Source of the DNA: Thermoanaerobacter wiegelii Rt8.B1
GTDB lineage: Bacteria; Bacillota; Thermoanaerobacteria; Thermoanaerobacterales; Thermoanaerobacteraceae
DNA length: 64,000 nt
NCBI RefSeq assembly: GCF_000147695.2
Contig: NC_015958.1
Coordinates: 2,711,501 to 2,775,500, forward strand
Reading direction: 5' to 3'
Shown here: one piece after another, positions 22,689-52,343 of the stretch
Layout of the letters: every line of letters begins with the position of its first letter
Position numbering within the stretch: the stretch's first letter is position 1
Made by a program: the position numbers and the translations under genes
Notes under the pieces: generated by a model
Told to the model about the DNA's origin: nothing
Seen by the model: only the letters and a program-made list of their open reading frames with translations
Database searches by the model: none

Positions 22689-24599
22689 TCGAGTAGGAGC
22701 TGAATAATTATTTTATTCAGCGTCCTCTCACACCACCGTACGTACCGTTCGGTATACGGCGGTTCATTAGGAATTGTGTACAATTAGATATCTTTGGGAT
22801 AAACTCTTATAACCTATGCTTTCAAAGTATTTATTTGTAAGAGTCTTATTTAGGATTGGGCTATTGGATATTCTCCAGTAGCCTTTCCTTGTATTGGCGT
22901 ATTCCCAGGCTTTTTGTTCTTCTACTCCTAGTTTTACTAAGTTATCATGCTTCGTTTTTATCTTCTTCCATTGTTTCCATATACATGCCCTTAGTCTTCG
23001 CCTTATCCATTCGTCAAGGGTTTTCATTATGCTTTTCGCGTCTGCTAATCCAAAATAGTTGACCCATCCTGTTGTTATTTGATTTAGTCTTTTTATTCTG
23101 TTTTCCATGCTTATTCCCTTGTTCCGATTGGTTATTTCTCTTACTTTTTCCTTAAACCTTTTGATGGATTTTTCATGGATTCTTATTCTTACTTCGTTTT
23201 CTTTTGTATAGAATGAAAATCCAAGAAATTTTCTTCTCCATGGTCTATCTACAGCACTTTTTGCTTCGTTGACTTTTAGTTTTAATTTGCTTTCTATGAA
23301 TTTCTTTATGCTCTTCATTACTCTGTTTCCTGCAGACCTGCTTTTTACATATATGTTGCAGTCATCTGCATATCGGCAGAATTTATGCCCTCGTTTCTCA
23401 AGTTCTTTGTCTAGTTCGTCCAACATTATGTTTGCTAATAGGGGACTTAATGGCCCTCCTTGGGGTGTCCCTTCTTCTGTTGATACTTTGATTCCGTTTA
23501 TCATTACTCCTGATTCTAGGTATCTTCGTATTAACTTTAGTACCCTTTTATCTCCTATCCGCTTTTCTAGTTTGGACATTATTATGTCGTGGTTTACTCT
23601 GTCAAAGAACTTTTCTAAGTCCATATCTACAACCCATGTGTATCCTTCATTTATGTATGCTTCTGCGGCTTTTATTGCGTCTTTTGCACTGCGTCCTGGT
23701 CTGAATCCATAACTGCTATCAGAAAATGTATGGTTGTAGACTTTATTTAGTATTTGGGCTATTGCTTGTTGTATTAGTCTGTCTAGTACTGTAGGTATTC
23801 CTAGTAGTCTTTTTCCTCCATCAGGTTTGGGAATTTCTACTCTTCGCACTGGTTGTGGTTTGTATTTCCCCTCCAGCAGTTGTTGTTTTATGGTTGCCCA
23901 GTTTTCTTTGAGATACGGTAGAAGTTCATCTACTCCCATCCCATCGACTCCATGGCTTCCTTTATTTGCAACAACGCGCTTGTATGCTGCTTCCATGTTC
24001 CCTCGTTCTACTATCATTTCAAGCATCTTGCCGGTATATCTTTGTACTTCGTTTCTTCCATCTTCCGACGCCGATGATATACTATGCACTTCCGTTGTCT
24101 TTTGAAATTCCATTTCTCTATTCAACGGATAGCCTCTTTGTTGAGTTGTCTGCAGTCTTCGCATATCTTTCGAGTCCATAAGATTTCCAAAACCTCCTAA
24201 CGTTCGGTCCTTCCTTATCTATTCATGTCTAGATAAGTACTATGACCTCTGCTGACTTCTCAAGGTTCAGCCATACATCACTGCATGGGTTGTCACTTCA
24301 GATTTTACTTCCATGACTTATCCTTGAGACCTCCCCGGGTAAGAACGATAACTTTCATCTCATATATCTGCCAGATTTACTGTATGGGATTCGGGTAGTG
24401 TTGGACTTCGTTTTGTTACGCAAACTCATCCATCCCAATTCAGCCTCTTATCTGGTTCTTGTTCATCAGACCGAGATTTTGCCTTAAGCTTCCTTCAGAT
24501 TCCACCTCACGATGGACACCCTTGCTCTTGGCTAGTGGTTCCCACTACCAAGCCCACAGCGGACTTTCACCGCCTAGTTATCGCCCATGCCGGGCGCAC
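22688..24599 (-). mobile_element. group II intron (class C type) with its maturase gene
   Basis: Read on the minus strand the intron begins with GTGCGCCCGGCATGGGCGA, a typical group II 5' end. Its 3' part has a domain V-like hairpin (CGCCGTATACCG...GTACGTACGGTGG), GTGTGAGAGGACG and a domain VI stem, GCTGAATAA/TTATTCAGC, followed by CTCCTACTCGAT. The A seven bases from the 3' end would be the branch point. The 5' end lies a few bases after the T-run of the phosphoglucomutase terminator, the known preference of class C introns. About 420 bases before the maturase form domains I-IV. Confidence 0.85.
22767..24179 (-). CDS. ltrA: group II intron reverse transcriptase/maturase
   Basis: A 470-residue multifunctional protein that splices its host intron and copies it into DNA. 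The reverse transcriptase domain occupies about residues 60-300: RRVEIPKPDGGKRLLGIPT, the YGFRPGRSAKDA block, EEGTPQGGPLSPLLANI and the active site FCRYADDCNI. The maturase (X) domain follows (KRLNQITTGWVNYFG). No HNH endonuclease domain is present, as usual for class C. The frame is intact. GGAGG lies about 12 bases upstream of the ATG. Confidence 0.95.
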   Translation of the reverse strand: MDSKDMRRLQTTQQRGYPLNREMEFQKTTEVHSISSASEDGRNEVQRYTGKMLEMIVERGNMEAAYKRVVANKGSHGVDGMGVDELLPYLKENWATIKQQLLEGKYKPQPVRRVEIPKPDGGKRLLGIPTVLDRLIQQAIAQILNKVYNHTFSDSSYGFRPGRSAKDAIKAAEAYINEGYTWVVDMDLEKFFDRVNHDIIMSKLEKRIGDKRVLKLIRRYLESGVMINGIKVSTEEGTPQGGPLSPLLANIMLDELDKELEKRGHKFCRYADDCNIYVKSRSAGNRVMKSIKKFIESKLKLKVNEAKSAVDRPWRRKFLGFSFYTKENEVRIRIHEKSIKRFKEKVREITNRNKGISMENRIKRLNQITTGWVNYFGLADAKSIMKTLDEWIRRRLRACIWKQWKKIKTKHDNLVKLGVEEQKAWEYANTRKGYWRISNSPILNKTLTNKYFESIGYKSLSQRYLIVHNS

Positions 24600-33118: not shown

Positions 33119-34804
33119 CTAGCTTACCACTGATAAAACTACACTCGCAGGTGTGAAAATCTCATCAAAAGTACCTATTTTTATTACTTCTCCATCCTCT
33201 ACAAAAATTATCTTGTCATATTTTCTCAACACCTCTTCAGAAGTATTATGAGTAATTACCAATGCTGTCAAACCTTCTATGCTTAAAATAGAATCTTCTA
33301 TGCTGGAGGCTGTCTTTTTATCCAGTGAAGATGTAGGTTCATCTGAAACCAAAATAGGTGTGCCCTTAATTAGTGCCCTCGCAATACTTATTCTCTGCCT
33401 TTCTCCACCTGATAAATTGTTTCCTTTCTCTCCTACTTCAGTGTTTTCTTTTTCAGGTAGTTTCTCTATAAATTCCTTTAAACCAGAGAGAGAAATTGCT
33501 CTTTCTATAATTTTTTCATCATACTCTTTAAAAAGAGTTATATTGTTTTTTATACTAGTATCAAACATAAACACATTTTGATGTATTACAGATATTAAAT
33601 TATTGTACAAATCTTCTGTTTTTATCTTCCTTATATCTATACCGTCAATTAAGATTTTACCCTCAAAATTGTTATAGTATTTCAAAAGAAGTTTTAGTAT
33701 TGTAGATTTTCCGCTGCCACTTGGACCAATAATTGCACATTTTTCTCCTCTTTTTACTGTAAAAGATACATTCTTTAAAACTGGTTCTTTTCTGCTATCA
33801 TAAGAAAAACTAACATTGTCAAACACTATTGCATCATTAAAGTCTTCCTTTGAAACAAATTCCTCTTTTCCGTCTTTCTTGTCCTGCATAATATCTATTA
33901 TTTTCTGCTGTATTGACTCTGTTCCTTTTAAAGCATTTACTTTTTCTATAATTCCTATCATCGGATTTACAATGTTATTCATCAATTGTACTGCAGCTAT
34001 CATCAATCCCGGTTCTATAACATGCTTTATCACAAGATAGGCTCCAACGCCCAGTGAAACAAAAAACATTAAAGATCCAAAAAATTCCGTCAAAGCATTT
34101 GCTAAAGCAAGTATTTTTTCAAAGAAAAATCTAGTGTCTTCTACTTTTTTGTTGTATTTCTGATACTGTTTCTCCACCAATTTTTCCACATTAAAACTTT
34201 TGACTATTTCAAAGCCAGACAATATGTCATTTGTCTGCACTGTCAAATCAGATAAACTATCAGAAAAATCTTTTTTAGCTTTACTTATTTTCTCCCTAAA
34301 AAGATAAGGAATAACTATGAGAAAAATACTTATGACAAAAACTCCTACAGCAATGTAAACATTTAATTTAAAAATCGCCACAGTAGCGATTATAAAAGAA
34401 AATATTTGCTCTAACATTATCAGTATATTCTTAAAATAATCCTGTTCAAGTATTGTGATATCATTATTCAAAGTAGAAATATACGCAGCACTATTGCCCT
34501 TTTGAAACTGGTCTATTTCTCTATTTATGACTTTAGAAAATATGTCATTTTTTAAATTGTAAAGCATTTGTCTTACATAGTTCGCCCTTAAAACTCTCAA
34601 AAAATACCATACAATGAGTACTCCAATTAAATACAATACAAAAATTATACTGGTTCCATAAAGGCTTTCCATATTATATTGTACAGCTGCATCTACAAAA
34701 CTTCCCAAAATAAATGCCACCATAACAGTTAATATACTTTCTGCCAATGTGAAAATTATATTTGCTGTAAGTAGTAACTTATGCTTAAAAAAATACTCCC
34801 TCAT
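33119..34804 (-). CDS. ABC exporter, fused membrane and ATPase domains
   Basis: A 561-residue half-transporter. Six membrane helices occupy about residues 10-300. The ATPase domain has Walker A GPSGSGKSTILK, signature NLSGGERQRISIARAL, Walker B LVSDEPTSSLD and switch TALVITHNT. No N-terminal C39 peptidase domain is present, so any leader must be removed elsewhere. Asp-Glu in SDEPT rather than LDEPT is slightly unusual but keeps the catalytic glutamate. It belongs to an array of similar exporters up to 45 kb and likely exports a peptide or lipid. A small frameshifted membrane gene lies just upstream. Confidence 0.9.
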   Translation of the reverse strand: MREYFFKHKLLLTANIIFTLAESILTVMVAFILGSFVDAAVQYNMESLYGTSIIFVLYLIGVLIVWYFLRVLRANYVRQMLYNLKNDIFSKVINREIDQFQKGNSAAYISTLNNDITILEQDYFKNILIMLEQIFSFIIATVAIFKLNVYIAVGVFVISIFLIVIPYLFREKISKAKKDFSDSLSDLTVQTNDILSGFEIVKSFNVEKLVEKQYQKYNKKVEDTRFFFEKILALANALTEFFGSLMFFVSLGVGAYLVIKHVIEPGLMIAAVQLMNNIVNPMIGIIEKVNALKGTESIQQKIIDIMQDKKDGKEEFVSKEDFNDAIVFDNVSFSYDSRKEPVLKNVSFTVKRGEKCAIIGPSGSGKSTILKLLLKYYNNFEGKILIDGIDIRKIKTEDLYNNLISVIHQNVFMFDTSIKNNITLFKEYDEKIIERAISLSGLKEFIEKLPEKENTEVGEKGNNLSGGERQRISIARALIKGTPILVSDEPTSSLDKKTASSIEDSILSIEGLTALVITHNTSEEVLRKYDKIIFVEDGEVIKIGTFDEIFTPASVVLSVVS

Positions 34805-34808
34805 TCTC

Positions 34809-34951
34809 TCACCTTCCTAAAGCCTCTACTAATACAAATCCCATTTCAACTCCTAAAAACAGACCACCCATGAAATGTCCAAGAAGTATCCTAAACCTGT
34901 ACCAATAAATAAGCATCCTACAAAAATTTTGCCTTTCTTTATAAATCCCAA
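34809..34951 (-). pseudogene. small glycine-rich membrane peptide gene, frameshifted
   Basis: A TTG with AGGGGGG five bases upstream opens MGFIKKGKIFVGCLFIGTG. After LGYF one base is out of register, and the other frame continues GHFMGGLFLGVEMGFVLVEA and stops five bases before the exporter gene. With the shift corrected this would be a 47-residue, very hydrophobic, glycine-rich peptide. It could be a small subunit or an exported peptide of the adjoining transporter; this is inferred from position only. Confidence 0.45.
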
Positions 34952-36485: not shown

Positions 36486-37184
36486 TTACACCACAAATAT
36501 TCCTTCTTCCCTCACTGGCTCCTCTACTTTATCCAACTTCTCTATATTAAATAAACTGTAAAAATATCCTTTCCTATCTAATAGCTCATCAAATTTCCCA
36601 CTCTCTATTACTTTCCCATCTTTTAATACTATTATCTCATCATATTTCTTCAGTAACTCACTCCATAATCTGTGTGTCACTACTATTGCTGTTATATCTT
36701 TCATCTCCAATATCGTTTTCTCTATTAAATAGGCTGTCTCATTGTCTAACGCTGCTGTCGCCTCATCTAACGCCAAAATCGATGCATTTGTTATTATTGA
36801 CCTGGCTACCGCTATCCTCTGCCTCTCCCCTCCTGATAATAATTTACCTCCTTCCCCTACATCACTGTATATCCCCTCTGGCAATTTCTCTAACAATGGC
36901 CCTAACCCCGCTATCTTTGCTGCTCTTATTACTTCTTCATCTGTGTATTTGTCATTTAAAAAGAGTTATGTTGTCTTTTACTGTGCCGTCAAATATGAAT
37001 ACATTTTGATGTAATAACGTAATTATTTTGAACAAGTCTTTCTTATCTATTTGCCTTAATTCAATCCCATCTAATAATATCTTCCCTTCATAGTTTTCAT
37101 ATTGTTTTAACAATAATTTCAGTATAGTCGATTTTCCTGCCCCACCTGTTCCTACTAAAGCGTATTTTCCACCTTTTTTGATTG
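36486..37184 (-). pseudogene. isolated ATPase domain of an ABC exporter, truncated and frameshifted
   Basis: The sequence is a close copy of the ATPase domain of the exporter at 39097-40829: GKSTILKLLLKQYENYEG, GLGPLLEKLPEGIYSDVG, the signature LLSGGERQRIAVARS, LALDEATAALDNE and the same C-terminus. A shift at an A-run near 36960 breaks the frame, and all membrane helices are missing. Homology begins exactly at the repeat at 37185, so the gene was probably cut by a rearrangement there. Confidence 0.8.
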
Positions 37185-37216
37185 CAGACAAAGGGACAGG
37201 GACTTGTCTTTTGTCT
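37185..37216 (+). repeat. REP-like repeat, GGGACAGGGAC type, copy 2
   Basis: AGACAAAGGGACAGGGACTT with TTGTCT following is imperfectly palindromic. It forms an inverted pair with copy 1 around the broken ATPase domain. Confidence 0.6.
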
Positions 37217-37394: not shown

Positions 37395-38678
37395 ATGCTC
37401 TCTTCTATAGGCGATAAAATTAAAGCTTTGAGACTACAAAAAAATCTCTCACAAAGTGAATTGTGTGGAAATTTTATGAGTAGAGTGGTCTTGAGCAGAA
37501 TTGAAAGCGGGAAAGCACTCCCCTCATTAGAACAGTTAGCTTACCTCGCCGAAAAATTAGAAGTACCTGTAAGTTATTTCTTTAGTGATTCTACAGGAGA
37601 AAAATACATACTTTTTGAGAAAAATTCGTCTTTACTTAAAGACTTGTTTTTAGCCAAAGATTATTACGAAATTATTAAATGGTCCGAGGAAAATCACAAT
37701 GCTTTTTGTGAAGTAGAAGATTCTAATAAATACTACTATCTTGGCATGTCTTATTTTTACTCCAATATCTTTGATAAAGCTTTAAAAATTTTGAAAAAAT
37801 ATATAAATGCTTTTACTAAATCAAGCACAGACTTTAAAAGGGAAAATATAGAAAAATTTTCTGATGCCTTAAACTCTCTTTTTAAAATAATGCTTAAAAA
37901 TAAAAACTATGAAAAGGGAATTCATTACTTAGAGCTTGCAAGAAAGTATCTTTATCAATTTAATGCCTTGAGTTTACCTGTAAGTTTTGCAATACATAAT
38001 AATTTAGCTTACACTTACCTCAAAACGTGTCAGTTCCAAAAAGTAGTAATTATATTGGAAAATTTCATTAATTACAATAATGATATTATAAGCCTTAAAA
38101 TTATGCCAGATATATATACTTCTCTAAATATCGCCTATTACAACTTAGGAAATTATGAAAAAGCCCTTTACTATATAAAAAAAGCGATACTTTTATTTGA
38201 GTTTCAGGGCGATCATTTAGAAGCTGGAAAATGCTACCTGAACTATATAAATACCTTAAGGCACAGTAGCAAATTTAAAGAAGCCTTTGAAGTGCTTGAA
38301 AAAGCTAAGAATGATTACAAAGATGACGCTGAACTTTATCACAAGTTTAAAATTCAAGAGATGATTCTTTATTTTAATATCGGTATGTATGAAAAAGTTA
38401 TTGAACTTTCAGAAAGCATTAATACTTCTTTACTCAGCATGAGAGGGAAAAAAGAGCTCGCTTTCATATTAGGTCATATAAAATACTTGAATAAAGAATT
38501 TGAGGAGGCTTATAGATTTCTTAAAAAATGCGAAAAATATTTTGCTGAAGAGAATTTTTACAATGACCTATCTGTTATCTATGAAGACTTATACGCAATT
38601 CCAGGTGATGTTAATTATAGAGAAAAAGTATTGGCAGTAAAAAATAAATCAGGTAGGAAAAATGTAATTATAAAATAA
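37395..38678 (+). CDS. XRE-TPR transcriptional regulator (RRNPP-like)
   Basis: A 427-residue regulator with an N-terminal helix-turn-helix (IGDKIKALRLQKNLSQSELC ... VVLSRIESGKALPSL, about residues 5-60). About 350 residues of helical TPR repeats follow (YNLGNYEKALYYIKKAILLF and others). This is the architecture of RRNPP receptors (NprR, PlcR, Rgg), which bind small exported peptides. The ATG at 37395 has GGTGGTGA upstream and starts exactly at the helix-turn-helix; the frame extends upstream without a start signal. It points away from the exporter array and sits between copies of the same exporter domain, so the exporters are candidate targets. Confidence 0.85.
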   Translation: MLSSIGDKIKALRLQKNLSQSELCGNFMSRVVLSRIESGKALPSLEQLAYLAEKLEVPVSYFFSDSTGEKYILFEKNSSLLKDLFLAKDYYEIIKWSEENHNAFCEVEDSNKYYYLGMSYFYSNIFDKALKILKKYINAFTKSSTDFKRENIEKFSDALNSLFKIMLKNKNYEKGIHYLELARKYLYQFNALSLPVSFAIHNNLAYTYLKTCQFQKVVIILENFINYNNDIISLKIMPDIYTSLNIAYYNLGNYEKALYYIKKAILLFEFQGDHLEAGKCYLNYINTLRHSSKFKEAFEVLEKAKNDYKDDAELYHKFKIQEMILYFNIGMYEKVIELSESINTSLLSMRGKKELAFILGHIKYLNKEFEEAYRFLKKCEKYFAEENFYNDLSVIYEDLYAIPGDVNYREKVLAVKNKSGRKNVIIK

Positions 38679-39096: not shown

Positions 39097-40829
39097 CTAT
39101 ACCACAAATATTCCCCCTTCTTTCACTGGTTCCTCTACCTTATCCAGCTTCTCTATGTTAAATAAACTGTAAAAGTATCCTTTCCTCTCTATTAAATCGT
39201 CAAACTTGCCCCTCTCTACAATCCTACCATCTCTTAATACTATTATCTCATCATATTTCTTTAGTAGCTCACTCCACAACCTGTGTGTCACCACTATCGC
39301 CGTTATGTCCATCTCCAGTATCGTCTTCTCTATTAAATATGCCGTTTCATTGTCCAGTGCCGCTGTTGCCTCATCCAGTGCTAGTATTGACGCATTTGTT
39401 ATTATTGACCTCGCTATCGCTATCCTCTGCCTCTCCCCTCCTGATAGAAGTTTTCCCCCTTCTCCTACATCGCTTAATATGCCCTCTGGCAATTTCTCTA
39501 ACAATGGCCCTAATCCTGCTGTCTTCGCTGCTCTTATTACTTCTTCATCTGTGTATTTGTCATTAAATAGGGTTATGTTATCCTTTACTGTCCCGTCAAA
39601 TATGAATACGTTCTGATGTAATAGCGTAATTATTTTGAATAAGTCTTTCTTGTCTATTCTCCTTAATTCTATCCCATCCAGTTTTATTTCTCCTTCATAG
39701 TTTTCATATTGTTTTAACAATAACTTGAGTATTGTGGATTTCCCTGCTCCACTCGTCCCTACTAATGCGTACTTTCCTCCTTTTTTGATTGTAAAGTTTA
39801 TGTTATCCAAAGCTTTTGTCTCACCTGTGTAGCTAAAAGATACATTTTTAAATTCTATTGAATCGTTAAAAGATTTTACTGGTATATAATTATCCCCCTC
39901 TTCCTTTTCCTGTAATACTTCATTTATCTTCTGTGATATGCTCTTTAAGGAGAGTATCCTATTGAGATTTTGACCCATACTGTATATTGGCATAATTATG
40001 CTATTGCTAAGCTGCACACAGGCAATCATTGTTCCTAAAGTCATCTCTCCTTTTAGGTAAAGTACAAACCTACTGCAAATACAGAGAGGAAAATAAAACT
40101 ACTTAAAATTTCAGACATAGTGTCAGAGGTATTTAAAAGTATGCTGTATTTAAGCTTTTTATCTTCCACATCTTCATTAATTTTTGAAAACTTCTCATGT
40201 ACTTTATCCTCTATCCCGAAGCTCTTTATCACTTCAAGTCCTGTAAGAGTATCTTTAGATTCTATAGTAAAAAGTTCTAAGCTCTCAGAATAATCGTTTC
40301 TCATTTTAGCAATCTTATCATCAAAAATGCGAGGAATTATTACACTAAGAATTGCCATGAGTATTATCATCACAGTTATTTTGTAACTTAATATAAATAG
40401 AGAAATTAATGCAGCCACAAATCCTACTGCACTGCCTAAAAGCCTAAAGAAATTGTTAAAATAATCCTCTTCTACAATCTTTACATCATTTGAAATAATT
40501 GAAATGTACTTACCTGTATTAACTTCATTAAAATGTTCCACATCCTTTTTAATGATTGCTCTAAATAACCTGTCTTTTAGGTATATCAAAGTTTTTTTCA
40601 TGTAATGAAATCGAGTTGTTCTATTTAACCATCCAACTACTGCTTCCAATATGGTAAACATTACTGCGAATTTGACAACAGAATAAAATTTCACCAAATC
40701 ACGTGTAGTTGCTACATCTATGAGTTTTTTATAAATAAAAGCAAAGTAAATATTTATCAATACAGAAGCTACTAAGAAAAATACTGCAAGCACAAACTCT
40801 TTTTTGTACTTGAATAAAAATTCTCTCAT
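39097..40829 (-). pseudogene. ABC exporter, fused membrane and ATPase domains, split by a frameshift
   Basis: Two consecutive frames make up one half-transporter of about 577 residues. Membrane helices are in the first (258 residues, ending FAVGLYFT then a stop). The last helices and the ATPase domain are in the second (MTLGTMIACVQLS..., GTSGAGKSTILK, LLSGGERQRIAIARS, LALDEATAALDNE). Adding one base near 40050 gives FTLKGEMTLGT and a continuous protein. The second frame has AAGGAG only two bases before its ATG, too close for good initiation. No C39 peptidase domain. The ATPase half is nearly identical to the fragment at 36486. Confidence 0.8.
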
Positions 40830-41027: not shown

Positions 41028-42302
41028 GTACCAGCTTCAATTACTTTTAAATATACCTGAACTCTTTACTTCTCTATCTAAAATTGATTTCTATTCTTCT
41101 ATGTTTAAAAATCTAGACTTGTCTTCAATACCTGAATTCCCTTTCTCTAGTCCTGGCCGTAAGGGTTATTCTCATCATGCAATGTTTAGAGCTTTTATTG
41201 TTATTAAGCTTTAAGATTCGGTACAATTTCTGACCTTTTAGATTATCTCCGCAATAATCTTATCATTGCTCATCTTTGTGGCTTTAACATCCTTAAACCT
41301 CTTCCTTCTTATTGGACTTTCCGCCGTTTTATTAATGAGTTCTCTCATGATTATTTGACCTCTATCTTTCAAAATCAAGTCAATATCCTCAAAAATATGG
41401 GCATTATCTCTGGTGAGTTTATTTCCATGGACTCTACCCCTATTAAAGCTAACACTAAGTTAAATAACCCTAAGTCTTTTTCTAAAAATAAATTCTCTAA
41501 AGATAATCAGCCTAAGTCTAATAAGGATTGTAAATTAGGCGTTTATTCTGCTTCTAATGATTCTTCTAATAAACGTTATAAGTTTTATTGGGGCTATAAA
41601 AATCATATTATTGTTGATGCTATCTCTGGATTGCCTATCGCTGAAACTACTACTCCCGCTGATGTCCCCGATTTTGAAGTTGCTTTGTCTTTACTTGAAA
41701 AGACTAATAAGTGGTTTAACCTTAAGTATGTTAATTTTATTGCCGATAAGGGGTATGATGTTAAGAGAGTTTATAATTTTGTTAGAGATACTCTCCATGG
41801 TCATTGTTTTATTCCTCTTAACAAGCGTAATTCTAAAAATCCTCCACTGACTGATGATGGTTATATGGTTTGTGAAGCAGGTATTAAAATGCTCAAAGAC
41901 GGCAAGCAGTATTTTGATGGTTTTATTAAGCAAAAATTTGTTTGCAAGCTCTGTAATTCTAAAGATGACTCTGCCTGCCCTATAAAGCATCCTAAATATT
42001 TTAATGGCAAAAAGCATAGAGGCTGTACTAAGTATGCTATTATATCTTCTGATTATAGGTCTTCTATTAATAGAGACTCCCTATATTTTAAGGCTGTCTA
42101 TAGACTAAGAGTAGAATCAGAAAGATATAATTCTCGATTTAAAGCTCTAGATTTTGAAAAAGCTTATGTTAGAAATATTAATTCTGTCAGCAACCTTAAT
42201 ACTTTTGGCCATATTACTTTGCTTACTGTCGCTATTGTAGCTATTAAACTGGGTAAATTTGATGAGTTTAAGTCTCTTAGTGCTCTGATGCAATCGGCTT
42301 AA
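41026..42302 (+). pseudogene. DDE transposase (IS4/IS5-like), frameshifted
   Basis: The first 62 codons (LLLNIPELFTSLSKIDFYSS ... GRKGYSHHAMFRAF) and a second frame of about 360 codons (ISDLLDYLRNNLIIAHLCG onward) belong to one transposase of about 425 residues. Register is lost near 41212. The catalytic region begins with GEFISMDSTPIKANTK (first Asp), continues FIADKGYD (second) and ends YRLRVESERYNSRFKALDF (Glu). A zinc-like cluster (FVCKLCNSKDDSACP) precedes the last motif. The catalytic residues are present, but the frame break should abolish activity unless bypassed. Confidence 0.8.
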
Positions 42303-42650: not shown

Positions 42651-42980
42651 CTATAAAATAGAAACATTGCTATTTTTAGTTTCTATAAGTTGCTCCTTAA
42701 TAATTTCTCTGTAGATAGGACATGAACTGGGCAATTCTTCATGAGCTCCATTAGCGACAATTTTCCCTTTATCGAGCACATAAATTTCCTTGCACTGGAG
42801 AACTGTTGATAACCTATGGGAAATCACAATTAAATTTTGGACAATAGTTTTTATGTTTTTAAATATCATACTTTCTGTTTTAGTATCAACCCCTGATAAA
42901 GCTTCATCTAATACTAATAATGTTGGCTTCCTTAAAATTGCCCGCGCTAATGCTAAACGCTGCTTTTCCCCAGTAGACAA
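42651..42980 (-). pseudogene. C-terminal fragment of an ABC ATPase domain
   Basis: The 109 residues run from the signature (STGEKQRLALARAIL, preceded by Leu) through LLVLDEALSGVD and VISHRLSTV to the C-terminus. Walker A and the membrane domain are missing. It differs in sequence from the neighbouring exporters, so it comes from another one, and its flanks resemble those of the exporter at 33119. Confidence 0.7.
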
Positions 42981-43441: not shown

Positions 43442-45169
43442 TCATACAGTTTCTTCTACAGTCTCAATCTCTTCTTTCTCATCAATCCCATAATTATACA
43501 TATAATAGAAATACCCTCTCTTCTCTAATAGCTCATCCAATGTGCCTCTTTCAATGATTTCTCCATCTCTCATTACAAATATTTCATCATACCTTTTAAG
43601 TATCTCTGGGTCTAACTTATGGGTTACAGCAAGCACTGTCGCATCTAAATTTATAAGCGTCCTCTCTATATCGCTCGCTGTAACTTTGTCTAAAGCTGCT
43701 GTAGCCTCATCTATCAGCAGTACTTCCGCTTTCTTGATTAGTGCTCTTGCAATTGCTATCCTCTGTCTCTCTCCTCCTGATAGCTCTACTTCCCCTTCTC
43801 CTACTATTGTATCGAGTCCTTTGGGAAGTTTCTCAACAACCTGAACTAAACCAGATTGTCTCAATGCTTCAATGAGTTCCTCTTCCCCACATTCACTGTA
43901 AAGGCAAATGTTATTCTTTAATGTGTCGCTAAACATAAAGACATTCTGCTGTATAATGCTAACTTTCCTGTAATAGGAGGCAGGGTCAAATTCTCTTATG
44001 TCTACTCCGTCAATGAGCACTTGCCCCTCATAATCTGTAATGTGATTTAATAGCACTCTGAGCAGTGTGGTCTTTCCACACCCACTTTCTCCAACTAATG
44101 TATACTTTTTACCTTTATCAAGCTTTATGTTTATGTTTGACAAAGCATTCCTCTTCCCATCGTAAGAAAAGATTAGGTTTTTGATTTCTATAGAATTTTT
44201 AAATTCAAAAGGTTTATCTCCCTGTGAAACTTTCTCCTTGCTTACATCTATTATTTCTTTTTGGATTTTATCTGCTATTTTTTCAACAGATTTTATCTTT
44301 GTAGCATATACAGATGCAGAAATTAAAGGATTTACTATGTAGTTCATAAGCTGTACAGCGGCAATCATAGAACCTACTGTGATATAACCTCTTAAGACCA
44401 AATATGTGGCTACGAGAATATTTACAAAAAACATCGCAAATCCTGACACAATAGACAAAGCTCCTTGAAATCCTTGAAATGCATCGGATTTATACCCTGC
44501 CATTTCTGCATCTTTGTTATCTTTTGATGCCATATTGAGGATTTTGCTCTCTATGTTAAAAGCTTTTATTACTTCAAATCCCTGAGCCATCTCTTTTATC
44601 CTGTTGGTAAACCTCTCAAGTTTTTTAAGGTACTGTCCTTTTAGCTCTTGATTTATTTTTGTGAAAAGCTGAGGTACAATCACTGGAACCCAGCCAAAAA
44701 TGAAAATGACTATAGTGAGATAAACGTTTATTCGAAGTATTAGATATAAAGACACGATAAATAGTAAAACGTCTTCCATAATGTTAATGAGACTTGTTAA
44801 GTAATTACTCTCTATCATTCTCACATCATTGCTAAGTAAAGATATCAATTCTGAACTTGTAATTTTTCTTCTTCTAGAATTTATGAAACTTTCTATGATG
44901 GATTGTTTGTAGTCTATTAATACTTTCTTGTTAAAAGCTGCTGAAGCTGCCTTTGACAAAGTTTCAGCTGTAAATACTGCTATTAAAAACCCTACTGAAT
45001 ACCATATTAAGGCAGAAATACTGTAATTTAAATTTCCAACTGATGTGTCAACAATTATTTTAAAAAGTATCGCCTGCAGGGCTTTAAGGGCTGATACAAA
45101 AATTACAAGTATAGCGTTTACCAGAATTAAAAACTTATACTTTAAGATGTATTTCTTTATCGTCTCCAT
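43442..45169 (-). CDS. ABC exporter next to the radical SAM peptide maturase
   Basis: A 575-residue half-transporter. Six membrane helices lie in about residues 15-310. The ATPase domain has Walker A GESGCGKTTLLR, signature ELSGGERQRIAIARAL, Walker B LLIDEATAALD and switch AVTHKLD. No C39 protease domain. The start codon directly follows the stop of the radical SAM gene, so both are on one transcript with the small peptide gene at 46683. It is the best candidate for exporting the modified peptide. The frame is intact, in contrast to the maturase. Confidence 0.9.
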   Translation of the reverse strand: METIKKYILKYKFLILVNAILVIFVSALKALQAILFKIIVDTSVGNLNYSISALIWYSVGFLIAVFTAETLSKAASAAFNKKVLIDYKQSIIESFINSRRRKITSSELISLLSNDVRMIESNYLTSLINIMEDVLLFIVSLYLILRINVYLTIVIFIFGWVPVIVPQLFTKINQELKGQYLKKLERFTNRIKEMAQGFEVIKAFNIESKILNMASKDNKDAEMAGYKSDAFQGFQGALSIVSGFAMFFVNILVATYLVLRGYITVGSMIAAVQLMNYIVNPLISASVYATKIKSVEKIADKIQKEIIDVSKEKVSQGDKPFEFKNSIEIKNLIFSYDGKRNALSNINIKLDKGKKYTLVGESGCGKTTLLRVLLNHITDYEGQVLIDGVDIREFDPASYYRKVSIIQQNVFMFSDTLKNNICLYSECGEEELIEALRQSGLVQVVEKLPKGLDTIVGEGEVELSGGERQRIAIARALIKKAEVLLIDEATAALDKVTASDIERTLINLDATVLAVTHKLDPEILKRYDEIFVMRDGEIIERGTLDELLEKRGYFYYMYNYGIDEKEEIETVEETV

Positions 45170-46521
45170 TTATATAACCTCCCTGGAATAAAGTTTTTTG
45201 TATTTATTTAGAAATTCCTCAAATCTTCCATTTCTCATTATTTGAAAAAGCTTAGTTAATACTAATTCTGTTAATTTGATATTTCTGTCACAGTCTTCTT
45301 TATCAATAATAAGTTTACCTTTTTCTATAAGGGATTTCGCAGGACATTTTGTACACCAAAAGCTGGCCACACAGTTTCTGCAATCTTCATGAGTTTCTTT
45401 ATTTACTGATTGTAACATTTTACTTATTCTTTTAAAACCTGAGTTGATAGTATATATATCATCATATATGTTACCAATTTTGTAATTCCCCCTACCAATA
45501 TATAGGGGACAAGGCCATATATCTCCATCGGAATCAATTGTTATCTGGTTAATTCCTACATCACAAAAATATGAATATCGTTGTTGCGATAAAACACTGT
45601 TTGTTATAGTATTTAATGAAATATTGTAGTTATATTTTTCTTCAAAAATATCAGAAAAAAATTTTTCACTTCATCATCTATTCTATCCAATCCATTTTCA
45701 TCATCATGTGGAACTTTCAAGTTTTTATCATTTGTTACAACATTAAATACAGAAATTCTTTGAATACCCACTTCATTTTTCAAATGTTCTATAATTTCTG
45801 TTCTACTTAGTTTTTCATAAGCCTGTTTAGTATAAGTAGCCTGAATAAAACCAACATTTTCTTTATTCCTATTTAGTTTTTTTACATTAGTTACAATAGT
45901 AGTATAAGTGCCTCTACCATCTGGATATTTACGATGTACATCATTGATAAATTCTGGTCCATCAATACTTACGGTGACCTTGATATTATATTCCTCAATT
46001 AATTTATGTATTCTTTCGCTATAAATAGTTCTATTTATTTCCATTAAAAAGTTTACTTTTTTATCTTTAAAGTCCCTACATATCGTTTCTATTGCATCTA
46101 CTGCGAGCAATGGTTCTCCACCAAAAAATAGAATAGCTGATAAGTTTGGAAACTTATTTGCAATTTCTTTGCTCAGATTAACAGCTTCTTCTGGTTTCAT
46201 AACTTTTCTTTTTTTCCCATAGCTACCGTATGATGCGTAACAGTACGAGCATCTTAAATTACAGTCGTTACTAACAATAAGCTTTATAGAAGTAATGGTG
46301 CTGGTTGATGGCTCTTTTGTGTAAAAATCATCATTAGGTTTACAAGTATTTTTTATTTTTTCCCATATTTCTTTTTCTTTCTCTGTCAGTGTTTTCTCTT
46401 CAGAAATTTTTCCCAAAACATTGACAAACTCCTCTTCTAATGAAAAAAGTTCCATGTTAGCTACATTAAATAGTAATCTATTATTTAAATCCACAAAGGA
46501 ATTTATCCTGGATAGATACAA
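45170..46521 (-). pseudogene. radical SAM/SPASM peptide maturase, frameshifted
   Basis: With one base added to a seven-base A/T run at 45655-45661 the gene encodes about 450 residues. The radical SAM cluster is C87-NLR-C91-SY-C94, with GGEP at 134-137. The C-terminal SPASM region supplies Cys in SYFCDVG, WPCPLY, CRNC, FWCTKC and DCD for auxiliary iron-sulfur clusters. Such enzymes form thioether or carbon-carbon links in ribosomal peptides (sactipeptides, ranthipeptides). A TTG start follows AAAGGGA. As it stands the protein ends after the radical SAM half at residue 302 and loses the SPASM domain. The same lesion could be a sequencing error. Confidence 0.8.
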
Positions 46522-46643
46522 GATATTCCCTTTCCTTTCACCTATTACATTTTAAAAAGACAAATAAAGAATTTGAATAATTAGTATAATTTTTGATTAT
46601 CATTGTTATTTTACGGAATTTGAGGACTTTTAGTTATAAATTG

Positions 46644-46673
46644 CCTCCAAAGGGCAAAATAACCCTTTGGAGG
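46644..46673 (-). terminator. hairpin between the peptide gene and the maturase gene
   Basis: CCTCCAAAGGG and CCCTTTGGAGG form an 11-bp stem with an 8-base loop, 10 bases after the peptide stop codon. The bases after it (CAATTTATAA) are only weakly T-rich, so it could terminate partly and keep the peptide transcript more abundant than the maturase. Confidence 0.6.
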
Positions 46674-46682
46674 ACCTTTTCT

Positions 46683-46763
46683 TTAACTAATCTTTACACC
46701 ACATCCGGCAAGCCCGAAGCACCAGTGCATTGGAGACACAGAAGAAAATGTTATTTTACTCAT
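46683..46763 (-). CDS. candidate RiPP precursor peptide, two cysteines
   Basis: A 26-residue peptide with a strong ribosome-binding site (GGGGGTG, about five bases before the ATG). It starts MSKITFSS and ends in the presumed core HWCFGLAGCGVKIS, with cysteines 15 and 21 separated by FGLAG. It lies 160 bases upstream of a radical SAM/SPASM gene on the same strand, with an ABC exporter behind that. This order, precursor then partial terminator then maturase then exporter, is typical of radical SAM peptide clusters. I do not recognise a described family. Without the neighbours so short a frame would be unsupported. Confidence 0.6.
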   Translation of the reverse strand: MSKITFSSVSPMHWCFGLAGCGVKIS

Positions 46764-46986: not shown

Positions 46987-47040
46987 GCACATCTTAAAAC
47001 TTTTCTATATTTGTATTTACATCAAAGTTCTAAGATGTGC
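46987..47040. repeat. long hairpin upstream of the peptide gene
   Basis: GCACATCTTAAAACTTT and AAAGTTCTAAGATGTGC pair over 17 bases with one mismatch around a 20-base loop. It sits about 220 bases upstream of the peptide gene in an otherwise gene-free stretch (46764-47218). It could be a terminator of something lost, or a regulatory structure. Confidence 0.5.
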
Positions 47041-47218: not shown

Positions 47219-47392
47219 CTATCCACCCCATGGATTATTTATATCTCCATGTACCCTTGGTTCTCTTTCTTCTGCTAACATGTATTGTTGCATTACTTTT
47301 TTATCATTTATATAGGAGGGCTTTACGTTAATGTACGTCACTATCCCAAGTAAAAAAGCTACTAATGCCAATAAAGCTATAGCTTTCTTCAA
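47219..47392 (-). CDS. 57-residue peptide with signal/anchor segment, possible signalling peptide precursor
   Basis: A TTG start with GGGAGGTG seven bases upstream opens a 57-residue frame. The N-terminus MKKAIALLALVAFLLGIVTY is a signal or anchor; a polar linker follows (KKVMQQYMLAEEREP) and the end is HGDINNPWGG. No cysteine is present. Its size and layout resemble precursors of the peptides that RRNPP regulators sense, and the decayed 5' end of such a regulator lies 300 bases away in divergent orientation. It may equally be a small membrane protein. The frame is short but start signal and composition look genuine. Confidence 0.5.
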   Translation of the reverse strand: MKKAIALLALVAFLLGIVTYINVKPSYINDKKVMQQYMLAEEREPRVHGDINNPWGG

Positions 47393-47693
47393 TTTTCTTC
47401 ACCTCCCAAATTTTCTTTCAATTTTATCCTACCATTCTTACCTCTTTCCAGTAAAATGGCAAAAATGCTTATAAGCCCTCCCAATATTTCGTTTTGGCGA
47501 AGTTATCTATATTTTCCTTTCTTTTTCTCTTTTTTTCATATATCGCCAGTGAAAAATTTTAATTTTGTAACTGGAAGTTACAATAGGCTAAATTTGTAAA
47601 ATTGCTTCAAAGGCAGTAAAATAAAGAGCTTAATAAGTGATGTTTAAAGTTAATTATCTGAAAATTTAAACTTTATATGTTTATTTTGATTTC

Positions 47694-50366: not shown

Positions 50367-52343
50367 TTGTCTTCACCTTCCTCTTCAAAATATTCTTTAA
50401 TAGCATTTTTTAAGTCTTGCAGTACTTCCTCTATAGGCTTTTTGACCTGAGCTCCTGCAACAGTTAAATGTCCTCCTCCACCAAGCTTTTCAAGGATAAC
50501 TTGAACATTTATGTCTCCAAGAGAGCGTCCGCTTATGGCTACATCTTCTTCTCTTTTTAAAAGGACAAAAGAGGCTTGTACTCCCTTTATTGTAAGAAGT
50601 TCATCAGCAGCCTGGGCTATGATGAGATTGTTGGCATTTGGAGGGCTAACTGCTATTGCAATGCCGTTATCCAATATCTCGGCATTTTTCACTATTGAAG
50701 CTTTTATTATGTAAGAATCTAAGTCATTTTGGAAAAGCTGCTTAACAGAGGTTGTATCTGCCCCTTTTCTCCTCAAAAAGGAGGCTGCTTCAAAAGTCCT
50801 GGAACCTGTCCTGAAAGTGAAATTTTTTGTATCCACTGATATTCCTGCCATTAAAGCCTCAGCTTCTATAGGTTTTATGTCAATCTTGTCTACTATATAT
50901 TGCAAAATTTCTGTGACTAATTCGCTAGCAGAAGAAGCATAAGGCTCTAAATAGACAAGCAAGGCTTTATCAATAAACTCTTTCCCTCTTCTATGGTGGT
51001 CTATTACAACTATTCTGTCTATAATATCTACAATTTCGGGATAAGTAAGATAACTGGGTCTATGGGTATCAACAACTATTAAAAGGCTGTTTTGGTCCAC
51101 CATGTTTTTAACTTCACTGCTTTTTATAAATAAATCTTCATAGCCTTTTGTGTTTTGTATTTTCTTTACTAATTCATCTATTGCTACATTAGATTTATCT
51201 AATATTATATAGGCTTTTTTGCCTAAAGACATGCTGGCTCTATACATGCCAATTGCAGCACCTAATGAATCAAAGTCCATAAAGTTGTGACCCATTATGA
51301 AAATGGTAGAGGATTCTTTTATGAGCTCTTTTATAGCGTGGGCAATTACTCTCGCCTTTACTTTTGTCCTCTTTTCAACAGCTTGTGTTCTTCCTCCATA
51401 AAACGAAATTTTATCTCCTCTTTTTATTACTGCTTGGTCTCCTCCTCGCCCTAATGCTAAGTCTAAGGCGCTAGAGGCATATTCATTTAAGGCTAAAAAG
51501 TCATTGGCATCTGCTCCAATTCCTATGCTTAAAGTTAAAGGGATTTTTATCTCTTCTCCAATTTCTCTCACTTTATCCAATATTTCAAATTTATTTTCTT
51601 CTAAGCTTTTTAATCCTTCCTCTTTAAATACGACAAAGTATTTATCATCATCATATTTTTTCATAAAAGCTTTTATTGAGGAAGCCCATTCTGAAAGTTT
51701 TTTTTCTATTTCTGAAGAAACCACCGCTTTTTTAATATCTTCTATTGCCATCATCGCTTCTTCGTAGTTGTCAATTATTATATGCCCTACCACAGGTCTA
51801 TCGAAAGCTAAAGATTTCTTAAGCTGAATGTATTCAGTGTTATCAAGGAATAAAAGAGTACAGCTTAGGTCCTTCCCTTTTTTCTTTTTGCTTGAGAATC
51901 TACTTTTAACACGGAATAGTACCGGCCATTGAACTCTATTTGGTTTTTTTGTCATCTATTTTGTTTCCAGCATATTTTTTTATCAATTTCTTTATCTCTT
52001 CATCTTCATTAAAGACCTGAGAATAGTTTAAGTTATACCACAGGATTTCTCCGTTATCATTTAAAATAACGGCAGGAATTGGCATCTTTGCTAAAACGCT
52101 TTTTGATGCCTTATCAACATTGAAAAATATATTTTCTATATATTTATCCAATTCTAATCGCTTTTTCTTTACGCCATAGTATTCACTTAAAAGCACATAA
52201 AGAAAGATGATTAATGAAATAGAAGCAATTATCTCGTTGTAGTAAAACATTAAAACTATTAATAAAGCTGATAGTAAAATATTTATCACATTGACAGAAG
52301 AAATTATTTTATAAAATTTCTTATCCACAAAAACACCTCTCAT
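50363..52343 (-). CDS. gdpP: cyclic-di-AMP phosphodiesterase GdpP, split by a homopolymer frameshift
   Basis: GdpP degrades the essential messenger c-di-AMP. Two overlapping frames (135 and 530 residues) together match its order: two membrane helices and the start of a PAS domain in the first; then a degenerate GGDEF domain ([10 protein letters not shown]), the DHH phosphodiesterase ([21 protein letters not shown]) and the C-terminal DHHA1 ([12 protein letters not shown]). The frames meet at seven T's (51944-51950). Removing one base fuses them into 659 residues, the family's usual length. A downstream ATG inside the overlap could start the soluble half, so two polypeptides are possible. Sequencing error at the run is the simplest alternative. 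Confidence 0.85.

Follow-up and report, generated by a model that had tools for sequence, protein, structure and literature searches.

Radical S-adenosylmethionine (SAM) enzymes acting on short peptides can be placed under the control of cell-to-cell signals: the streptococcal ribosomally synthesized and post-translationally modified peptides (RiPPs) that are made by such enzymes (RaS-RiPPs) and controlled by Rgg/SHP include streptide, streptosactin GGG and NxxC (PMC13361665). RRNPP-linked gene clusters have been described in eleven families, Thermoanaerobacteraceae not being among them (Bernard 2023, PMC10075063), and in the literature searched, most subscription papers lying outside its scope, no paper paired RRNPP with Thermoanaerobacter and none combined Thermoanaerobacter, radical SAM and ranthipeptide. 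The locus considered here lies in a stretch of 64,000 nucleotides (the window, to whose first letter all coordinates refer) from Thermoanaerobacter wiegelii Rt8.B1 (NC_015958.1, positions 2,711,501 to 2,775,500), whose genome is a single contig of 2.785 Mb; it codes for a 26-aa peptide with two cysteines, a radical SAM/SPASM maturase region and an ATP-binding cassette (ABC) exporter. This cassette probably belongs to a family of quorum-sensing-controlled radical-SAM RiPPs in Thermoanaerobacter, built like the streptococcal Rgg/RaS-RiPP loci. A preliminary description, made from the letters alone, had proposed an undescribed RiPP locus, a reading that is supported; it was largely right, but the maturase frame is broken. 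Precursor, maturase and exporter had been seen as the unit, while a propeptide, a regulator, a palindrome and a leader hairpin had been missed, and it is the probable quorum-sensing setting that gives the locus its greater interest.

The cassette itself comprises four elements:
46683..46763, minus strand: precursor peptide, 26 aa, MSKITFSSVSPMHWCFGLAGCGVKIS, recognized by its frame and by conservation in the related genomes G009, G003 and G004
46644..46673, minus strand: RNA hairpin of 12 bp, arms CCTCCAAAGGG/CCCTTTGGAGG, directly 3′ of the precursor stop, from folding
45170..46521, minus strand: radical SAM/SPASM maturase region, frameshifted (frames 45613-46521 and 45170-45649)
43442..45169, minus strand: ABC exporter, 575 aa, membrane domain and ATPase, with orthologues in G009 and G004

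The sequence ahead of the precursor start, on the minus strand of the window, is AGAAAGGGGGTGAAAATATG, in agreement with the ribosome-binding site claimed earlier. The peptide is conserved as a protein, at 91% in G009 (MSKITFSSVSPMDWCFGLGGCGVVKIN, 27 aa) and at 70% in G003 and G004 (MQKITFSSVTPMGWCLGFFECGVIDK, G003 reading GSG for ECG). Moreover, G001, G003 and G004, all Thermoanaerobacter, carry a paralogous (type-2) precursor-maturase-exporter cassette, whose maturase is 34-36% identical to the type-1 enzyme and is directly preceded by the precursor VRKINFDPIVNPAFCG(F/L)AKICGVEIK. The two kinds of precursor have in common the skeleton M.KI.F...C.....CGV, the residues M, K, I, F, C, C, G and V being invariant across five peptides from both cassette types. 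Judged from these alignments, the 26 codons form a genuine gene and not a chance frame, because of its protein-level conservation in relatives and of the residues kept in a diverged paralogue. A peptide of this kind lies at most about 170 nt upstream of the maturase in all four relatives whose maturase of this family is intact (G009, G001, G003 and G004), as the proposal that the 26-mer is the likely substrate of a RiPP-type locus had required, and G009 contains an intact co-linear set of a 27-aa precursor, a 450-aa maturase and a 575-aa exporter. Wherever a maturase adjoins, neither cysteine varies. The type-1 precursors of G004 and G003 have no adjoining maturase; that of G003 has lost the second cysteine, and both maturase and exporter are missing beside it. 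Pfam and NCBIfam models gave no meaningful match for the precursors, which agrees with the earlier failure to place the peptide in a known family; an LptM match (12 bits) was dismissed as noise, and a second weak peptide match in G009 (L008), being inside a membrane-protein gene, was judged to be due to chance.

The hairpin reported right after the stop of the 26-mer was recovered by folding, the 61-nt stretch that holds it having -26.7 kcal/mol and a z of -5.7. Hairpins occupy the same position in both cassette types and are unrelated in sequence, as expected of an element that sets the level of the precursor above that of the enzyme, which is probably its function. A short frame with a strong hairpin immediately after it could instead represent a regulatory leader peptide (attenuator) of the maturase operon, the hairpin acting as the switch and the 26-mer not being a substrate; however, amino acids are conserved and there is no run of one codon type, several of the changes between the G004 and window precursors are synonymous, the paralogue has the same residue skeleton on unrelated DNA, and the equally placed, unrelated hairpins are without a long T run, so that an attenuator seems highly improbable.

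As to the maturase, the CNLRCSYC motif and the SPASM cysteines noticed in the preliminary description are present, but they are not contained in a single open frame: compared with the intact 450-aa orthologue of G009 (97% identical DNA), a 1-bp deletion at about 45667 splits the window gene, and the motifs with it, over two frames. A CX3CX2C radical SAM motif together with the SPASM cysteines in one open gene is found in the relatives and not in the window. Programmed frameshifting was ruled out, as the G009 enzyme is encoded in a single frame. The lost base is an A before GAAAAA, outside a T run and outside any long homopolymer. After the deletion, the codon changes are 11 non-synonymous to 4 synonymous, which differs from the exporter (24:78, p = 0.0003) and from the maturase before the deletion (7:15, p = 0.02); in addition, the TNGT motif of G009, which 13 relatives keep almost without change, is INRT in the window. 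We favor a true decay of the maturase gene on account of this excess of amino-acid changes, of INRT for TNGT, and of a similar 1-bp deletion in the nearby exporter of the second cassette type (39097-40829). A locus that is as described, with a frameshift due to a sequencing or assembly error and a strain that does make the product, is a doubtful alternative, although one to be kept in mind: precursor and exporter are intact, and by comparison with G001, which is of the same species, several isolated 1-bp losses are scattered in the window, including two in T runs of a housekeeping gdpP-type gene (51870-51960, where they split the gene into two frames by assembly error or mutation). The position of the lost base, the codon changes and the altered TNGT speak against an error. 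The cassette is probably non-functional in this genome, as its maturase is frameshifted; short of a sequencing error behind the frameshift, this strain should thus not yield the product lighter by 4 Da that had been anticipated.

Both maturase types match radical SAM or SPASM models. The top curated model for the two enzymes is that of the PapB ranthipeptide maturase (NF047865), with 192 and 152 bits against a cut-off of 340; other peptide maturase models rank after it, among them the SCIFF model TIGR03974 (145 and 127 bits, cut-off 425) and that of GggB, the streptosactin GGG enzyme (96 and 84 bits, cut-off 650), and every curated cut-off is missed. The predicted fold of the type-2 maturase, a middling model with a mean predicted local distance difference test (pLDDT) score of 70 and a low-scoring N-terminus, has 5why and 5wgg as first structural matches; its first 70 residues, in the part of low confidence, are arranged as strand-strand-strand-helix-helix, resembling a RiPP recognition element (RRE). 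The closest solved structure by sequence is likewise 5wgg, which we take to be the SCIFF maturase CteB. With PapB as the top model and CteB nearest by sequence and fold, thioether formation on cysteine appears to be the most likely chemistry. SPASM maturases with similar scores catalyze many reactions, and outside the CGV motif no acceptor residue is conserved in the alignment of the precursors of both cassettes; a reaction such as epimerization or the making of a C-C or C-O bond, in which the cysteines would have some other role, would suit these facts, but the closest models and structures are those of Cys-thioether enzymes, and both cysteines are invariant beside maturases while one is lost in G003, so that we consider a different chemistry unlikely. 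Within thioether formation, neither the ranthipeptide nor the sactipeptide label is assignable, as the cut-off is missed and conservation beyond CGV points to no acceptor residue. The proposed links from Cys15 and Cys21 to FGLAG residues find no support in conservation, because this stretch differs in the paralogue.

Beyond the genus, all named maturase matches have 31% identity or less, and no precursor of the 26-mer family was seen in the seven loci inspected (L035, L037, L043-L045, L051 and L052). One of these, in Clostridium rhizosphaerae (L044:2116-8816), has a look-alike layout with another enzyme branch: an HTH-TPR (helix-turn-helix and tetratricopeptide repeat) regulator, a secreted-type propeptide, three tandem 26-aa peptides (MKKLVTANKTRIQLASSCNFGFCGIG), a GggB-like maturase and an ABC exporter; a search of the phylum sample at E <= 1e-60, which had no positive control, found no relatives of it.

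The presumed signaling head of the locus, which except for RegA lies upstream of the precursor, includes:
47219..47392, minus strand: propeptide, 57 aa, TTG start, (L/M)KKAIALLALVAFLLGIVTYINVKPSYINDKKVMQQYMLAEEREPRVHGDINNPWGG, signal-peptide-like; candidate pheromone precursor
47565..47583, no strand: perfect palindrome TTGTAACT-NNN-AGTTACAA, placed 173 nt ahead of the propeptide; candidate operator for the regulator
46987..47040, minus strand: conserved leader hairpin between propeptide and precursor, z -8.3
37395..38678, plus strand: RegA, regulator with HTH_3 and TPR, 427 aa, divergent to the propeptide in G001; candidate RRNPP-type receptor

The propeptide family has matches, some of them weak, in nine of the ten genus genomes, and it precedes four kinds of radical-SAM cassette: those of precursor 1 (window) and of precursor 2 (G001, G003 and G004), a cassette that pairs a 39-aa peptide with a radical SAM gene (G001), and another whose radical SAM gene goes with a Cys-rich peptide (G006 and G007). 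Some copies differ solely in the C-terminus (HGDINNPWGG, HGEPIYQGKN or HGVFQKIE). Two of them, L080:9643-9816 (minus strand) and L077:13426-13593 (plus strand), are near-identical to the window propeptide except for this end (HGEPIYQGKN and HGVFQKIE, respectively), as expected of pheromone diversification. The palindrome is the sole such site in the genome at two mismatches or fewer, and in relatives its arms are kept while the spacer is varied; the leader-hairpin sequence is present in eight of the ten genus genomes. In two G001 loci, RegA and the first propeptide type are divergently oriented, and in about eight loci a second propeptide type (e.g., MKKKLLIVFSIVTLLLSSWCFSVMGNVESIGPMGEKDIIDWHSVVVDK) has a divergent HTH-TPR gene, RegB, at a distance of about 100 bp; the RegB of G009 passes the RNPP_C model (27.6 bits, cut-off 26.5). 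The RRNPP pattern, with an HTH-TPR receptor gene beside that of a secreted-type propeptide, is encountered in relatives.

Several observations weigh against a quorum-controlled RiPP cassette. In addition to the sub-threshold maturase scores and the middling type-2 model, RegA, which in the window has 9 kb between it and the propeptide, shows HTH_3 and TPR alone, without an RNPP_C match; about 460 nt separate propeptide and precursor in the window, more than in the paralogous loci; and covariation in the leader hairpin is uninformative, the sequences being too similar, with one double change and no excess over shuffles. Together with a propeptide C-terminus that is mostly identical across genomes (DINNPWGG), unlike that of fast-diversifying pheromones, the lack of an adjoining, RNPP_C-positive RegA would be compatible with a RiPP locus devoid of quorum control, in which the 57-aa product is a small protein acting in the membrane or in immunity, and the HTH-TPR genes lie nearby without any relation to it. 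We give this little credence: two unrelated types of propeptide are repeatedly paired with a divergent regulator gene, the C-terminus alone is changed in some copies (EPIYQGKN, VFQKIE), and one partner regulator is RNPP_C-positive.

The preferred reading, that of signal-controlled synthesis, can be developed by analogy with RRNPP systems and Rgg/RaS-RiPPs. The propeptide (47219-47392) would be secreted, trimmed to a C-terminal pheromone and re-imported; the pheromone would then be bound by an HTH-TPR regulator of the RRNPP type, acting at the upstream palindrome as its presumed operator, and transcription would pass the leader hairpin and reach the three genes of the cassette. The conserved N-terminal M.KI.F part of the 26-mer may be what the maturase binds, probably via an RRE-like domain at its own N-terminus, and the enzyme would then attach one cysteine of C.....CGV, or both, to the peptide through thioethers. 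Finally, the exporter, which starts at the base right after the maturase stop TAA, as had been noted before, would send the product out; since domain models found no peptidase domain in it, leader removal would need a separate protease, encoded by an unlinked gene. The product is most likely a narrow-spectrum growth inhibitor, or else a signal.

Two further features lie downstream of the cassette:
39097..40829, minus strand: the second cassette type's exporter, which a 1-bp deletion splits; the window contains neither the precursor nor the maturase that belong with it
41355..42302, plus strand: transposase-like gene between the two exporters, with a 444-aa relative in the same G001 region

The transposase-like gene may reflect remodeling of the island by mobile elements. 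From about 30 nt ahead of the precursor, the window loses its similarity to G009; this, and the longer distance from the propeptide in the window, suggests that the cassette was joined to the signaling head by recombination. Taking all loci jointly, we tentatively propose, as a possibility that falls somewhat short of an even prospect, a variable island by crp-dnaB in which recombination has brought one quorum head, made up of propeptide, regulator, palindrome and leader hairpin, together with radical-SAM RiPP tails of four or more unrelated kinds; the tail in the window would make a new class of very short two-Cys (C.....CGV) thioether peptide, and RiPPs of an anaerobic thermophile would be under density control by peptides.

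Among the other cassette types, one (L075:7151-9894 and L077:6540-8543) has a radical SAM gene (MKPSRYNFFFDFPEEPEKIVAYN...) and a Cys-rich peptide of 59-65 aa (MEYLIEGYNKEIGNEIPNDVFPITPCDIIKLPEGPGPCVCWGPYCW...), and it stands behind either propeptide type; another, in G001 (L076:3523-6720, minus strand), combines a 39-aa peptide, MFKLNDANLYENPDLVDFTEILMEIGETAVSVTGIQIIF, with a radical SAM gene for 418 aa and with more genes, and it follows a DINNPWGG propeptide. A further ABC exporter of the window (33119-34951, minus strand; 561 aa) is 39% identical to that of the second cassette and is preceded by a short hydrophobic frame, of 47 aa in G001 and of 32 aa in the window through a 1-bp loss. Remnants of ABC transporter genes at 36486-37185 and 42651-42980 (minus strand) indicate repeated duplication and loss in the island. 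A gene for a group II intron-type reverse transcriptase (22767-24179, minus strand) is absent from the matching G001 region, the alignment of G001 to the window breaking between 22689 and 24600.

Comparison with described systems starts within the genus. A thuricin CD-like cluster, Tmath_1976/1977, was reported in T. mathranii (Murphy 2011, PMC3132745), and its description agrees with a third cassette of G001 (L014:9739-11281, minus strand), with RegB divergent to it: its 453-aa enzyme matches the Tmath signature (CNLKCEYC at 101, GGEPLL at 151, TNG at 185), and its 32-aa two-Cys peptide, MLIIEEAKYHIPVGGEPNFICGCFIAPVRTIF, matches the description of Tmath_1976/1977. In G001, a few kb lie between this cassette and the second one; however, its enzyme has about 25% identity to the maturase studied here, its precursor is unrelated, and quorum control is not described in the accessible part of PMC3132745.

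At the level of the enzyme, the nearest solved relative by sequence and fold is that of the SCIFF system (CteB/ScfB; TIGR03974; PDB 5wgg, 5why), which forms Cys thioethers; the 26-mer has two cysteines versus six in SCIFF, a better-matching candidate place for the SCIFF role lies at 1188752 of the same genome, and identity with SCIFF was rejected on cysteine count and score. PapB-type ranthipeptide maturation gives the top-scoring model for both maturases, yet far under its cut-off. The freyrasin precursor has a repeated Cys-x3-Asp unit; the 26-mer, unlike this PapB-type precursor, has two cysteines and no such repeat. The window and type-2 maturases are nearer to PapB than to GggB. If the proposed chemistry holds, these small precursor-enzyme pairs from thermophiles (26-27 aa and about 450-460 aa) would be of use for thioether enzymology, and the island, as a modular system occurring in nature, would lend itself to the question of how a single signaling head serves different peptide products.

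With regard to control, the system resembles biosynthetic clusters with adjoining RRNPP systems (PMC10075063) in having a divergent HTH-TPR receptor and a secreted-type propeptide beside a RiPP cluster. Its closest counterpart in overall layout is the streptococcal Rgg/SHP RaS-RiPP locus (PMC13361665), which also combines a signal propeptide, an HTH-TPR-type regulator, a short precursor, a radical SAM/SPASM maturase and an ABC exporter; the Thermoanaerobacter locus differs in the families of regulator and propeptide, in the C.....CGV motif of its precursor (set against streptococcal precursors other than those of the CGx and CGG subfamilies), and in its occurrence in an anaerobic thermophile, to which, if our reading is true, the streptococcal pattern of signal-controlled radical-SAM peptides would extend.

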